A stretch of DNA of 49,648 nucleotides, taken from positions 1 to 49,648 of the forward strand of contig CANQGK010000018.1 in assembly GCA_947623175.1 (NCBI GenBank). Direction: 5' to 3'. Positions 2,453-32,575 of this stretch are shown piece after piece. Position 1 is the stretch's first letter; every line of letters begins with the position of its first letter. The notes under the pieces are model-generated. The model saw nothing but the letters and a program-made list of their open reading frames with translations, ran no database searches and was not told where the DNA came from. Made by a program: the position numbers and the translations under genes. This stretch comes from an uncultured Clostridia bacterium (GTDB taxonomy: Bacteria > Bacillota > Clostridia > Oscillospirales > Acutalibacteraceae).

Positions 2453-3223
2453 ATGGAAAAAAGACTTAAAATTGTCATTGCTGACGATTCAGAGGAATTT
2501 GGTCAAAGCTGTGCTAAAGCTTTTAAAGCTTACGGTATGCAGGTTGTTTTATGCGAAAAGGACGGTAAAAAGGTTATAGAGTACATAAAAAAAGAAAAGC
2601 CCGACGTTGTATTGGCGGACGTTTTTATGCACAATCTTGATGTTTTAGGTGTTCTTGAAGTATTGAAGGATATGGATGATAAACCTATGATAACGGTTAT
2701 GTCAAGCTTTGATAATCAAAGGCTCGAAAAAGAAACCCTCGAAGCCGGAGCGGCGTATTATTTTTTAAAACCCTTCGATATCAACACCTTAGCCGAACGT
2801 ATAATCCGACTTTCCGGTTGGAAAAACGATAAAGCGCCGTTGATTGTAAAGAATAACGTTGTAACAGATACTAAGTTAGAAGTTATGGTTACAGATATTA
2901 TCCATCAAATCGGTGTACCTGCACATATAAAGGGTTATCACTATTTAAGAGAAGCGATTATTCTTTCTGTAAAGAACAGTGAAATAGTAAATTCCGTAAC
3001 AAAGCTCCTTTATCCTACTATCGCAAAGATGTACTCTACCACGGCTTCACGTGTTGAAAGAGCAATCCGTCACGCAATAGAAGTCGCCTGGGATCGAGGC
3101 GACATTGACGTACTAAATTCCTATTTCGGCTACACCATCCAAACCGACCGCGGCAAACCCACAAATTCGGAATTTATCGCCATGATAAGCGACAATCTTA
3201 GATTGCAGATTAAAATGATGTGA
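2453..3223 (+). CDS. spo0A: sporulation master regulator Spo0A
   Basis: A 256-residue response regulator that, when phosphorylated, switches on entry into sporulation. The receiver domain spans residues 5-123 with the acidic pair D11-D12, the phospho-acceptor D56 (VVLADVF), S84/S85 and K106 (FLKPFD). The DNA-binding domain spans about 145-253 and is very close to the Bacillus protein: [36 protein letters not shown] (the recognition helix region) and [17 protein letters not shown]. All key residues are present, so it should be functional. In most spore formers spoIVB lies directly upstream; here it is absent and the gene stands alone with its own promoter and terminator between a recombinase and restriction genes. 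It may be the only copy, moved by rearrangement, or a second one. Confidence 0.95.
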
Positions 3224-29110: not shown

Positions 29111-31630
29111 TCATTTTCCGGCTTTATCGATAAGCTCGGATATTTTGGAGTCTATGGCGTCGAGTTCTTTTAAGAACTCTGCGGTTGACATTCTTAATAC
29201 GCCTTTTCTTACGGCGGAGAGCTGTATTAAGCCGTCGGAGGTTACCACGCGGACGCGGTCGTTTTGTCCGATTTCGCCTATCAGTCTTTCGATATAGGTG
29301 TCGCATGTCTCGTTTTCTTTGGTATAGACTACCGTGACTCCGTAGAAGTCCTGTTTTTCGCCCTTATTTCCCGCTACCTTATATCCGTCGAAAACGACTA
29401 TGACCTTACAGCCCGTAAAATGCGAATAGTTTGAAAGTATATGGCAAAGCATATCTCTTGCGCTGTAAAGATCGGATGCCGCCTCGGCTTTAAGTAAATC
29501 CCAACCGAAAATCACGTTGTAGCCGTCTATTATAAGATACTTGGTCTTTACTCCCCATATAACGGCGTTTTGATTATCTTCGGGTTCCGTTTTTTGCCTT
29601 TTCGGATAATAATTATATTTTACGCTTCCGAATTCCTTTTGCATTATCTCTTCGAGCAGCTTTTCGTCTATGCTTATATGACGGTGACGGGCAAAGCCTT
29701 CGTCCTTTTTGGAAAAATAGCTTTCGACGTGCATATAATCCTTGACTTTATCCCATTTTACGACAAAGCCCGCTCCGTGAGAGCAAAATACCGAATCGGG
29801 TGAATTTTCGAGATCGTTTTCGGGATTGTACGAAAAATCTTCAATCACCTTTTGCGCGTTGTGGCAAAGGTCATATCCGGCGGGGTCGAGCGAAAGTCTT
29901 CCGAGACCGCCTGTATATGAAGACATTTCCGCCATATATCCGTCCATACAAATAACCGGCACTTTGCCCGTGAGTATGCTGATTTCGCCGTCGTTTACGG
30001 GCGAATCGAAAATTCCGCCCATTAAGCGAATATCGTTTATAGCCCTGCCCGTTTGCTTTACGGGAATTTCCAATCTGAAATTATAATAAGGCTCCAACAA
30101 AACGCTTTGCGCCTGCATCAAGCCCTGTCTTACCGCCCTGTAGGTCGCCTGTCTGAAATCGCCGCCTTCGGTATGCTTCAAATGCGCTTTACCGCCCACC
30201 ACCGATATTTTAACGTCGGTTAAGGGGGATCCGGTCAAAACGCCGAGATGCGTTTTTTCCTTTAAATGCGTGAGTATTAAATTCTGCCAATTTTTTTCGA
30301 GCCGGTTATCGCTGCATTTTGTATCCACACTTATTCCCGAGCCCCGCTTTGCCGGTTCTATAAGCAGATGCACCTCGGCATAATGGCGAAGCGGTTCGTA
30401 ATGTCCTACGCCCTCGACGGTATTTGAAACCGTCTCCTTATATATTACCCTGCCTTCGGTAATTTCAATTTGAACGCCGAAACGCTCAAATACGATATTT
30501 TTAAAAATTTCCGCCTGGATCGTTCCCATAAGCGCACAGTGAAATTCGCCCAACTGTTCGTTGTATCCGATATGAAGCTTAGGCTCCTCTTCTTCCAAAT
30601 TTCTGAATTTCGGGAGCATAACGATCGGATCTATGCCGTCCGGCAAAAGAATTCGGTAGCGCATAACCGGCTCCAAAACCGAAGTTCTGCTTTCGGCTTC
30701 CGCGCCGAGTCCTTGTCCGGAAACGGTTTCGGTGAGCCCCGTAACGGCGCAGACCGTGCCGGCAGGCGCTTCCGGTACGGTTACAAACTTAGCGCCCGTG
30801 TATACCCGTATCTGGTTTATTTTTTCGGTTATGCCCGAATATTCTATACTGTCCTTAACCTTAAGCGTGCCGCCGGTAACGCGAAGTCTTGTAAGCCTTT
30901 CGTTTTTATCGTAGGTTATTTTATAAACCTTAGCGCCGAAGGATGAGGCAAAATCCTTGGCGGAGGTATATTTGTCTATCGCGTCGCAAAATTCCTTGAC
31001 ACCCGTATTTTTTAATCCCGAGCCGAAAAAGCAGGGGAAAAGCTTTCTGCTTTTTATGGCTTTTATTAAGGTGTCGGTTTTAAATTCGCCGTCGGACAGA
31101 TATTCTTCGAGTAAGGCTTCGTCGCCCATGGCGATTTTTTCGGCAGACGAAGCTTTACGATCCTCGGAAAAATCCGCCGTTTGACCGAAATTTTCCTCGA
31201 GTTCTTTTAAAATATCCTCTTTGTCTCTTCGTTCGAGATCGCATTTCGTTACAAAAATAAAGGTGGGTATGCCGTACTCCGCAAGCAATTTCCAGACCGT
31301 TCTTGTATGAGACTGGACGCCGTCCGTGGAGCTTATTACAAGTACGGCGTAATCGATAACCGAAAGTACCCGCTCGGTTTCCGCCGAAAAATCGACGTGA
31401 CCGGGGGTATCTATCAAGGTGATTTCGGTATCGCCCGACATAAAGGAGGCTTCGCCCGCAAATATGGTGATACCGCGCTCTTTTTCCAGCAAATGCGTGT
31501 CAAGGCAGGTATCCTTATGCTCTATTTTCCCACGGTTTCGTATAACTCCCGCGTTATATAATACCGCCTCGGCAAGGGTGGTTTTTCCCGCATCCACATG
31601 AGCCAATATTCCGATTGCAATTTTTTTCAT
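29111..31630 (-). CDS. TetM/EF-G-like GTPase fused to a YacP/Rae1-type NYN nuclease
   Basis: An 839-residue fusion. Residues 1-650 are a translational GTPase of the ribosome-protection branch (TetM/TetO, EF-G relatives): P-loop AHVDAGKT (10-17), switch I RGITI (52-56), DTPGH (74-78) and TKCD (128-131), followed by domains II-V (KRGSGISVDTKCS, HTEGGDFRQATYRAVRQGLM, LMGGIFDSPVNDGEISILTG). The Pro-rich loop III of TetM (PPVSTP) that displaces tetracycline is not kept, so resistance is doubtful. Residues about 698-839 are an NYN/PIN-like domain like YacP/Rae1: IIDGYNVIFGW (D702-N705), VVFDGYK (D748), ENETCDTYIERL (E774-D777) and VVTSDG (D799). Rae1 is a ribosome-associated A-site mRNA endonuclease in Bacillus. 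The fusion could bind stalled ribosomes and cut the mRNA; this is inference. It has its own promoter and no operon partners. Confidence 0.88.
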   Translation of the reverse strand: MKKIAIGILAHVDAGKTTLAEAVLYNAGVIRNRGKIEHKDTCLDTHLLEKERGITIFAGEASFMSGDTEITLIDTPGHVDFSAETERVLSVIDYAVLVISSTDGVQSHTRTVWKLLAEYGIPTFIFVTKCDLERRDKEDILKELEENFGQTADFSEDRKASSAEKIAMGDEALLEEYLSDGEFKTDTLIKAIKSRKLFPCFFGSGLKNTGVKEFCDAIDKYTSAKDFASSFGAKVYKITYDKNERLTRLRVTGGTLKVKDSIEYSGITEKINQIRVYTGAKFVTVPEAPAGTVCAVTGLTETVSGQGLGAEAESRTSVLEPVMRYRILLPDGIDPIVMLPKFRNLEEEEPKLHIGYNEQLGEFHCALMGTIQAEIFKNIVFERFGVQIEITEGRVIYKETVSNTVEGVGHYEPLRHYAEVHLLIEPAKRGSGISVDTKCSDNRLEKNWQNLILTHLKEKTHLGVLTGSPLTDVKISVVGGKAHLKHTEGGDFRQATYRAVRQGLMQAQSVLLEPYYNFRLEIPVKQTGRAINDIRLMGGIFDSPVNDGEISILTGKVPVICMDGYMAEMSSYTGGLGRLSLDPAGYDLCHNAQKVIEDFSYNPENDLENSPDSVFCSHGAGFVVKWDKVKDYMHVESYFSKKDEGFARHRHISIDEKLLEEIMQKEFGSVKYNYYPKRQKTEPEDNQNAVIWGVKTKYLIIDGYNVIFGWDLLKAEAASDLYSARDMLCHILSNYSHFTGCKVIVVFDGYKVAGNKGEKQDFYGVTVVYTKENETCDTYIERLIGEIGQNDRVRVVTSDGLIQLSAVRKGVLRMSTAEFLKELDAIDSKISELIDKAGK

Positions 31631-31672: not shown

Positions 31673-31701
31673 ATTATATCATTTCTTATCCGAAATCACA
31701 A
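31673..31701 (-). promoter_or_regulatory. promoter of the GTPase-NYN gene
   Basis: Minus strand TTGTGA (31701-31696), 17 bases, TATAAT (31678-31673), about 40 bases before the ATG. No leader peptide or attenuator, as in tetM, was seen. Confidence 0.65.
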
Positions 31702-31801: not shown

Positions 31802-32575
31802 ATGGCAAAAGTAATACTGTTGGCTCACACACCAAATCCCGAATATACCGTAGCTGCCGCGGCAAAGCTTTGTTACAGCAGTTCGACCATTACAAACCTT
31901 ACCGATAACTTAACCGACGAAAAGGCGGCTTTGTTTGTGGAAATGCTTTCGGAAATAGGTCATGAAAGTCCTATCGAGCATGCAAGCTTTACATTCGGTA
32001 TAGAGGGAGTTTCCCGCTCGCTTTTAGCGCAGATAACGCGTCACCGCATGGCGTCCTTTTCGGTAAAAAGTCAGCGTTACGTGCGCGAGGGAAGCTTCGA
32101 ATACGTGACTCCGCCGGAAATAGCGTCCGAGCCCGAGGCTTTGAAAATATACGAAGAAATTATGGCGGAGGATCAAAAAAGATATGACGCTTTGACCGAA
32201 ATATTAAAGGCTAAGCACAAAAAGGCTTTTATGTCGGAGGGCAAGGACGAAAAAGTTGCCGAACGACTCGCCGAAAAGAAGGCTATCGAGGACGCGCGTT
32301 TTGTTCTGCCGAACGCCTGTGAAACGCAAATGGTTATGACCATGAACGCGCGCTCGCTTCATAATTTCTTTAAAGTTCGCTGCTGCAAACGCGCTCAATG
32401 GGAAATACGTGACGTTGCAAATCAAATGTTGGCGCTTGTAAGCCGCGTTGCGCCGAATTTGTTTAAAAACGCGGGGCCCTCATGTCTTTGCGGCAAATGC
32501 CCCGAGGGTAAAATGTCCTGCGGAAAGCCCGACGAGGTGCGCGAATTTTATAAGGAACTGAAGCAAAATGGGTAA
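31802..32575 (+). CDS. thyX: flavin-dependent thymidylate synthase
   Basis: A 257-residue FAD enzyme that makes dTMP from dUMP with methylenetetrahydrofolate and NAD(P)H. The ThyX motif RHR-x7-S is present as RHRMASFSVKS (80-90). HESPIEHASFTFGIEGVSR and the C-terminal FVLPNACETQMVMTMNARSLHNFFKVRCCKRAQWEIRD region (split here as FVLPNACETQ and MNARSLHNFF) are standard. No ThyA gene is in the window. It overlaps tmk by 8 bases, so dTMP synthesis and its phosphorylation are translationally coupled. Confidence 0.96.
   Translation: MAKVILLAHTPNPEYTVAAAAKLCYSSSTITNLTDNLTDEKAALFVEMLSEIGHESPIEHASFTFGIEGVSRSLLAQITRHRMASFSVKSQRYVREGSFEYVTPPEIASEPEALKIYEEIMAEDQKRYDALTEILKAKHKKAFMSEGKDEKVAERLAEKKAIEDARFVLPNACETQMVMTMNARSLHNFFKVRCCKRAQWEIRDVANQMLALVSRVAPNLFKNAGPSCLCGKCPEGKMSCGKPDEVREFYKELKQNG

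Follow-up and report, generated by a model that had tools for sequence, protein, structure and literature searches.

A translational GTPase fused to a Rae1-type nuclease in an uncultured Clostridia bacterium, and its alternation with separate rae1 genes across the class

The window analyzed here, a 49,648-nucleotide stretch of DNA from an uncultured Clostridia bacterium (Acutalibacteraceae; GenBank assembly GCA_947623175.1, contig CANQGK010000018.1), carries a minus-strand gene for an 839-residue protein in which a Tet/EF-G-like translational GTPase is followed by a YacP/Rae1-type NYN nuclease. Comparison with other genomes of the class indicates that, among relatives, this fusion and the separate rae1 gene stand in for one another. 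It is very probable that the nuclease half does the work of Rae1. This is because the fusion and rae1 are mutually exclusive (with one exception), and because empty rae1 sites are found in genomes with the fusion. On balance, we favor the view that the protein is an mRNA endonuclease of the Rae1 type, dependent on the ribosome and carried by a translational GTPase of its own, which would act as its adaptor.

Alternation of the fusion with separate rae1

The survey set comprised 391 genomes of the window's class, many of them draft assemblies. The nuclease domain (NYN_YacP, PF05991) was present in 249 of these and absent from 142. Members of the GTPase family were collected with a profile (A2) of domains IV and V plus the C-terminal extension and were accepted at E <= 1e-50; a second group of matches, between the cut-off of 1e-20 and 4e-34, was assigned to other factors, apart from a single piece at a contig edge (G180). 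Both signals were observed in 155 genomes, the NYN domain only in 94, the GTPase only in nine (two of them fragments) and neither in 133. The 155 genomes with both signals divided into 140 that were counted as fused and 15 with an unfused GTPase and a separate NYN gene. The count of 140 is made up of 128 single frames of at least 780 residues, in part of which the NYN domain was placed in frame by inference from length, seven shorter frames with both parts, and five genes taken to be split or frameshifted (G224, G346, G139, G341 and G051; the apparently separate NYN domain of G224 runs to the contig end). The 94 NYN-only genomes were 92 with a separate rae1 (frames of 160–217 residues, 342 in G332), the fragment in G180 and a match under the cut-off in G248. 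Apparent second NYN domains in G136, G201 and G242 were rejected as partial and under the cut-off, and one genome that is 61% complete (G133) has two fusions.

The first-pass annotation of the window, made from its letters alone, had left it open whether the fusion is limited to this assembly and whether genomes that carry it keep a separate yacP gene. The 140 fused genomes settle the first point, and the second check, run across the class, found a separate gene in one of the 140. That genome (G330) has the fusion together with an intact rlmB-rae1-sigH locus, and it is the whole overlap between the 140 fused genomes and the 108 with a separate rae1, where about 39 would be expected if the two were independent. 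By comparison, a separate rae1 coexists with an unfused GTPase of the family in 15 of 24 genomes (Fisher test against 1 of 140, 3e-14). Counted by taxonomic family, coexistence was observed in 5 of 10 unfused versus 1 of 26 fused (p 0.0035; family f23, with a fragment only, was left out). Because unfused GTPases of the family share the genome with rae1 in these cases, the exclusion of rae1 follows the NYN domain and not the GTPase.

The usual position of the separate gene was established from 38 loci, 25 of which were the best-scoring of the PF05991 search. sigH was found in 36 of these and both rlmB and sigH in 31 (ten neighbors were checked with Pfam). Among 29 of the 139 fusion-only genomes, rlmB adjoins sigH without an intact rae1 in 25 (10 of 14 plus 15 of 15). 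Remnants of rae1 were observed in some of these gaps, with E-values that refer to a search of the gaps only. The clearest, in G025, is broken in several frames and matches the intact rae1 of G059, a genome of the same genus, at 5e-19; shorter remnants lie in G112 (1e-9, 40 residues) and G086 (2e-5, 35 residues), and one in G081 is doubtful (0.003). Furthermore, three genera (g33, g38 and g100) each hold both fusion genomes and separate-rae1 genomes. The Rae1-like reading offered by the first-pass annotation is strengthened by the mutual exclusion, the empty sites and the remnants, and its overall interpretation, a one-protein system for ribosome rescue or quality control, is partly supported.

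Nuclease and GTPase halves of the protein

The features of the gene are given below, with residue numbers of the protein and the basis of each assignment.

29111..31630, minus strand: fusion gene, 839 residues, Tet/EF-G-like translational GTPase plus YacP/Rae1-type NYN nuclease (open reading frame, Pfam domains, 19 full-length homologues)
30965..31621, minus strand: G domain, residues 4-222, with GTPase motifs AHVDAGKTT, DTPGH78, TKCD and GSG (Pfam GTP_EFTU, 3e-51; conservation)
30722..30934, minus strand: domain II, residues 233-303 (Pfam EF-G domain II)
30458..30670, minus strand: domain III, residues 321-391 (Pfam score under the cut-off; the predicted model shows an EF-G fold)
30107..30454, minus strand: domain IV, residues 393-508 (Pfam EFG_IV)
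30152..30187, minus strand: loop III of domain IV, residues 482-493, AHLKHTEGGDFR (conserved in the family; TetM has YYSPVSTPADFR)
29855..30103, minus strand: domain V, residues 510-592 (Pfam EFG_C)
29708..29854, minus strand: family-specific C-terminal extension, residues 593-641, DSVFCSHGAGFVVKW, with a predicted hairpin at 613-624 and helix at 626-632 (alignment and model)
29543..29707, minus strand: tether, residues 642-696, with helix 656-667 flanked by low-confidence stretches 642-655 and 668-693 (model)
29114..29542, minus strand: NYN_YacP nuclease domain, residues 697-839 (Pfam, alignment to Rae1 structures, model)
29525..29527, minus strand: D702, equivalent to Rae1 D7 (invariant in 65 aligned proteins)
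29387..29389, minus strand: D748 of VVFDG (invariant in the same 65)
29300..29302, minus strand: D777, equivalent to Rae1 D81 (invariant in the same 65)
29234..29236, minus strand: D799 of TSD, equivalent to Rae1 D104 (invariant in the same 65)

That one 839-residue protein holds both halves, as first proposed, was borne out by the open reading frame and by Pfam, and every motif then quoted (AHVDAGKT, DTPGH, TKCD, DGYN, VVFDG, ETCD and TSDG) is present in the translation; the strand had not been given. Full-length alignments with 19 homologues from other genomes (44–52% identity) exclude chance joining and mis-assembly. In the predicted model the nuclease is well folded after the two low-confidence stretches of the tether, the helix between them is conserved in homologues, and the linkers before the nuclease are probably flexible. 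The structure-comparison (VIA) rows span residues 1-613, and the assignment of the nuclease fold rests on sequence.

The NYN_YacP match covers residues 699-836 (143.7 bits, cut-off 24.6; 7e-42), and the domain aligns with the crystal structures of Bacillus subtilis YacP/Rae1 (5mq8 and 5mq9) at E 1.4e-23. A failure of the acidic residues to align with the active site of Rae1 had been named as grounds for doubt, and D702, D777 and D799 do align with it, at D7, D81 and D104. We take D7 and D81 to have a catalytic role in Rae1.

The two forms of the nuclease differ at their C-termini. Separate Rae1 proteins have a lysine-rich tail containing R166. Against a model of standalone Rae1 with 170 positions, the match of the window protein stops at 142, three residues before the stop codon, and the basic tail with R166 is missing. 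The tail was matched by 27 of 120 fused proteins, the window protein not among them; the tail model was built from 36 standalone proteins (L193 and L194 omitted), whose own 36 of 36 matches are partly by construction. Among the 93 fused proteins without a tail match, 48 end no more than 10 residues past the core and the rest have a partial or unrelated end. The Pfam model gave a similar picture among the matches listed, with standalone rows over the cut-off ending at 159-166 of 166 (except G244, at 146) and many fused rows at 138-158. The tail-bearing proteins do not count as independent cases, since all 12 of them in the GTPase tree sit in one 13-row fork. Tail loss follows clades, and we therefore read it as few events. 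R166P is among the B. subtilis suppressor alleles interpreted as loss of function in the retrieved text of PMC6613710. It is plausible that contact with the ribosome is now supplied by the GTPase instead of by the tail.

The GTPase half has TetM and TetO (PDB 3j9y and 4v6v) as its nearest solved structures by sequence, and its best NCBIfam model is tet_protect. However, the score of 385.9 bits is about half of the curated 775 (three unfused relatives reach 401–442), and the NCBIfam EF-G model gives 249.6 bits, far under its curated 659. Loop III aligns with that of TetM without gaps, A482, H483, L484, K485 and H486 standing in place of TetM Y506-V510. This loop, the domain IV segment GHxEPLRHYAEV and the extension motif SVFCxHGAGFxVxW are common, with some variation, to 44 fused and 16 unfused rows, and were not seen in the three Tet(M/O/S) and two EF-G rows compared. 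By these features and by the tree described below, the GTPase forms a subfamily distinct from Tet(M/O/S), with a loop III that is conserved in a form of its own. Two more proteins with EF-G domain IV are encoded in the genome of the window, which makes it unlikely that the fusion serves as the translocase there.

The first-pass annotation had noted that the TetM loop that evicts tetracycline is not conserved and had suggested that the usual resistance label may be wrong. The loop residues are indeed not kept, and doubt about the label is reasonable; the argument from the loop is itself weak, because TetM with S508A P509A V510A can be active (PMC4750697, in the part retrieved). We consider 'tetracycline resistance' probably the wrong label because the score is half the curated cut-off and the subfamily is separate.

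Distribution, ancestry and gene neighborhood

Fused proteins persist across 26 families of the class. Within the family of the window itself, the NYN domain was found in 6 of 60 sampled genomes, each time in a long frame (780–1355 residues). The GTPase family was found in 20 of 299 genomes of a phylum sample, 14 of them outside the class, and is thus rarer beyond it; named relatives of the fusion are clostridial. An open reading frame of 1309 residues (L215) was set aside as a longer architecture, as its N-terminal part has no Pfam match and looks like a spurious upstream extension.

In a 65-row GTPase tree made by a quick method, the 60 rows of the fusion family formed one clade (support 97, starred) and the three Tet(M/O/S) rows another (100, starred); EF-G was included and lay apart from the family, and Tet(M/O/S) were the Tet classes represented. 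Fourteen of the 16 unfused rows grouped outside the main fused fork (support 77), as did one fused protein (L208). The other two unfused rows, L172 and L176, lay within the fused rows (support 88, not starred) and are read as probable losses of the nuclease. In the tree of the NYN domain (80 rows), which is limited by few columns, 41 of 42 fused domains fell in one 43-row group (96, starred) with two standalone rows, L024 and L196; the remaining fused domain, L204, has a long branch and lay outside. Together the trees suggest that one main origin of the fused nuclease, with later losses, is likely. The separate NYN genes L024 and L196 come from genomes with an unfused GTPase (G243 and G262), and fission of a fusion is possible there.

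L176 is an unfused family GTPase on a Ligilactobacillus salivarius plasmid, divergent beside rpsN (ribosomal protein S14) with transposase genes nearby. Two IMG/VR contigs of ~42 kb (L172 and L173) carry family members without NYN, and the phage-collection records MT835563.1 and MT835514.1 carry members of the fusion family; all may be prophage flanks. One single-contig genome (G121) has two unfused GTPase copies (L153 and L170) as well as a separate rae1.

Around the gene in the window, the following features were recorded.

31673..31701, minus strand: promoter-like site TTGTGA-17-TATAAT with TG (10 of 12, extended -10), a consensus match only, ending 42 bp before the start codon
27769..29073, minus strand: GH39-like gene downstream on the same strand, 37 bp after the fusion stop codon, with no terminator called between
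31802-32575, plus strand: thyX, divergent neighbor of the fusion

The suggestion of a single-gene operon with its own promoter found no support, in view of the same-strand GH39-like gene 37 bp on without a called terminator and of the promoter-like site, such sites being about as common in the window as in shuffles (9 versus 6.4 +/- 2.6). An operon partner was also rejected: in a clustering of neighbors from 117 fused loci no widely shared neighbor emerged, and the largest cluster (17 loci) resembles an ABC transporter. In many loci with a standalone rae1, thyX is a neighbor of that gene (mrnC-thyX-rlmB-rae1-sigH), and within flanks of a few kb it was found beside none of the other fused genes surveyed. 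Its place next to the fusion in the window may be coincidence or a relic. An rlmB-like gene lies near the fusion in 1 of 120 fused loci, and the best rlmB match of the window genome is on another contig than the fusion. A Spo0A-like regulator is encoded at 2453-3220 (plus strand) of the window, and the host lineage is probably spore-forming.

Proposed mechanism, alternatives and known systems

We hypothesize that the EF-G/Tet-like part, in its GTP form, would enter the factor site of ribosomes with an empty or stalled A site, whose state would be sensed by the family-specific domain IV loop and the C-terminal extension. The tethered NYN domain, by homology to Rae1, could then reach the mRNA that lies exposed at or close to the A site and cleave it with its acidic center. 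Hydrolysis of GTP would free the factor, and the truncated mRNA would pass to decay and tmRNA rescue (the window genome has a tmRNA match). That the GTPase steers the nuclease to stalled ribosomes would be the natural reading, because the fusion is conserved and mostly lacks the tail of Rae1. More tentatively, the findings may be joined into the picture of a GTP-clocked, one-protein factor for ribosome rescue or mRNA surveillance, in which an empty A site would be sensed by the GTPase and the mRNA passed on to the tethered Rae1. Such a factor would have spread through Clostridia and repeatedly displaced free Rae1, with unfused GTPase and separate Rae1 as the ancestral two-protein form. If so, Rae1 would be able to work with a dedicated translational GTPase.

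A number of points weigh against the favored explanation. Replacement of rae1 indicates a shared function of the nuclease half and not guidance, and the halves also occur alone, with rae1 lacking the GTPase in 92 genomes and the GTPase lacking any NYN match in nine. The function is dispensable, because 133 of 391 genomes have neither half and few of the window's own family (6 of 60) have the NYN domain. Were domain IV to fill the decoding center, as that of TetM does, a nuclease docked there would face competition for the place, and the two could act only one after the other. Relatedness between genomes is not taken into account in the Fisher tests. The 29 genomes compared at the rlmB locus are non-random: 26 come from families with both states (f25, f26, f30, f31, f53 and f57) and hold all 25 empty sites, and the other three are G048, G152 and the window's own genome (G000). 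In these three and in G367 no sigH lies within the 3.2-kb rlmB locus, where rlmB is arranged differently, and they are uninformative. No biochemistry on any fused protein was found among the matches listed in a search of open-licence PMC papers.

The strongest alternative, which we think rather unlikely, is that the nuclease does the job of Rae1 and the GTPase, for example a stress-specific EF-G-like factor, is joined to it by chance or for dosage and is not a guide. This would fit the family GTPases without NYN, both the 15 genomes with a separate rae1 and the nine without an NYN match, the position of L172 and L176 inside the fused part of the tree, and the 92 genomes in which rae1 stands without this GTPase. 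However, the joined form persists in 26 families with a conserved tether helix, and most fusions have no match to the Rae1 tail, as would be expected if the GTPase took over its part.

It is improbable that the protein protects ribosomes from tetracycline or another antibiotic with the nuclease as an accessory, possibly acting on rRNA, as Atkinson 2015 suggested. The TetM/TetO structures and tet_protect as best matches, one fused relative annotated as TetM/TetW/TetO/TetS family, the tolerance of TetM for loop substitutions and the gap-free alignment of loop III are all consistent with such a role. Set against these are the halved score, the separate clade with its own loop and extension, and the replacement of rae1, whose product is to our knowledge only an mRNA endonuclease. 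Still less probable is a GTPase-guided RNase for the maturation of rRNA or tRNA, an idea about the NYN domain that predates the characterization of Rae1 (quoted by Atkinson 2015, retrieved text of PMC4342817); it is countered by the lack of NYN_YacP in 142 of 391 genomes and by the description of Rae1, the nearest relative whose structure has been solved, as an endoribonuclease of the A site (PMC6613710, as retrieved). A toxin-like or anti-phage RNase restrained by the GTPase is very improbable: the two phage-collection records match over 80% or more of the fusion and NYN-less relatives occur on two viral contigs, but these may be prophage flanks, PADLOC gave no match, no neighbor is widely shared among the 117 fused loci, and the gene that the fusion replaces is a chromosomal one with a constant position.

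In the usual view, Rae1 gets into the ribosome without help, and we know of no GTPase partner of Rae1. A natural tie between Rae1 and a GTPase, which displaced Rae1 in relatives, makes the question of how Rae1 selects its ribosomes directly testable. In addition, some genes labeled as tetracycline resistance (e.g., in Agathobacter rectalis) may be mRNA quality-control factors, which affects counts of resistance genes.

The fusion may be compared with known systems. It shares with Rae1/YacP (5mq8, 5mq9) the NYN_YacP domain and its acidic residues, but Rae1 is a separate protein of ~170 residues with a basic tail, while the fusion is joined to a GTPase and its window member is tailless. The rae1 gene of the class usually lies between rlmB and sigH, and the fusion gene of the window lies between the GH39-like and thyX genes. 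TetM and TetO have the same domain order and GTPase motifs as the fusion, which differs in its domain IV loops, its C-terminal extension, its separate clade and the added nuclease. The architecture itself is already known: in the retrieved text of PMC4342817, Atkinson 2015 reported the acquisition of a YacP-like NYN RNase domain by the Tet proteins of ten clostridial species and suggested RNase-based resistance. No other paper or experiment on the fusion, and neither the replacement of rae1 nor the status of the GTPase subfamily, was found among the matches listed in the open-licence PMC literature. The window protein has the architecture of those proteins, its single open reading frame encoding all five EF-G domains and, at the C-terminus, a YacP-like NYN domain. 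To that architecture, which is what the retrieved text of Atkinson 2015 reports, our comparison adds the link to Rae1, the mutual exclusion with rae1, the empty rae1 sites and the GTPase subfamily.

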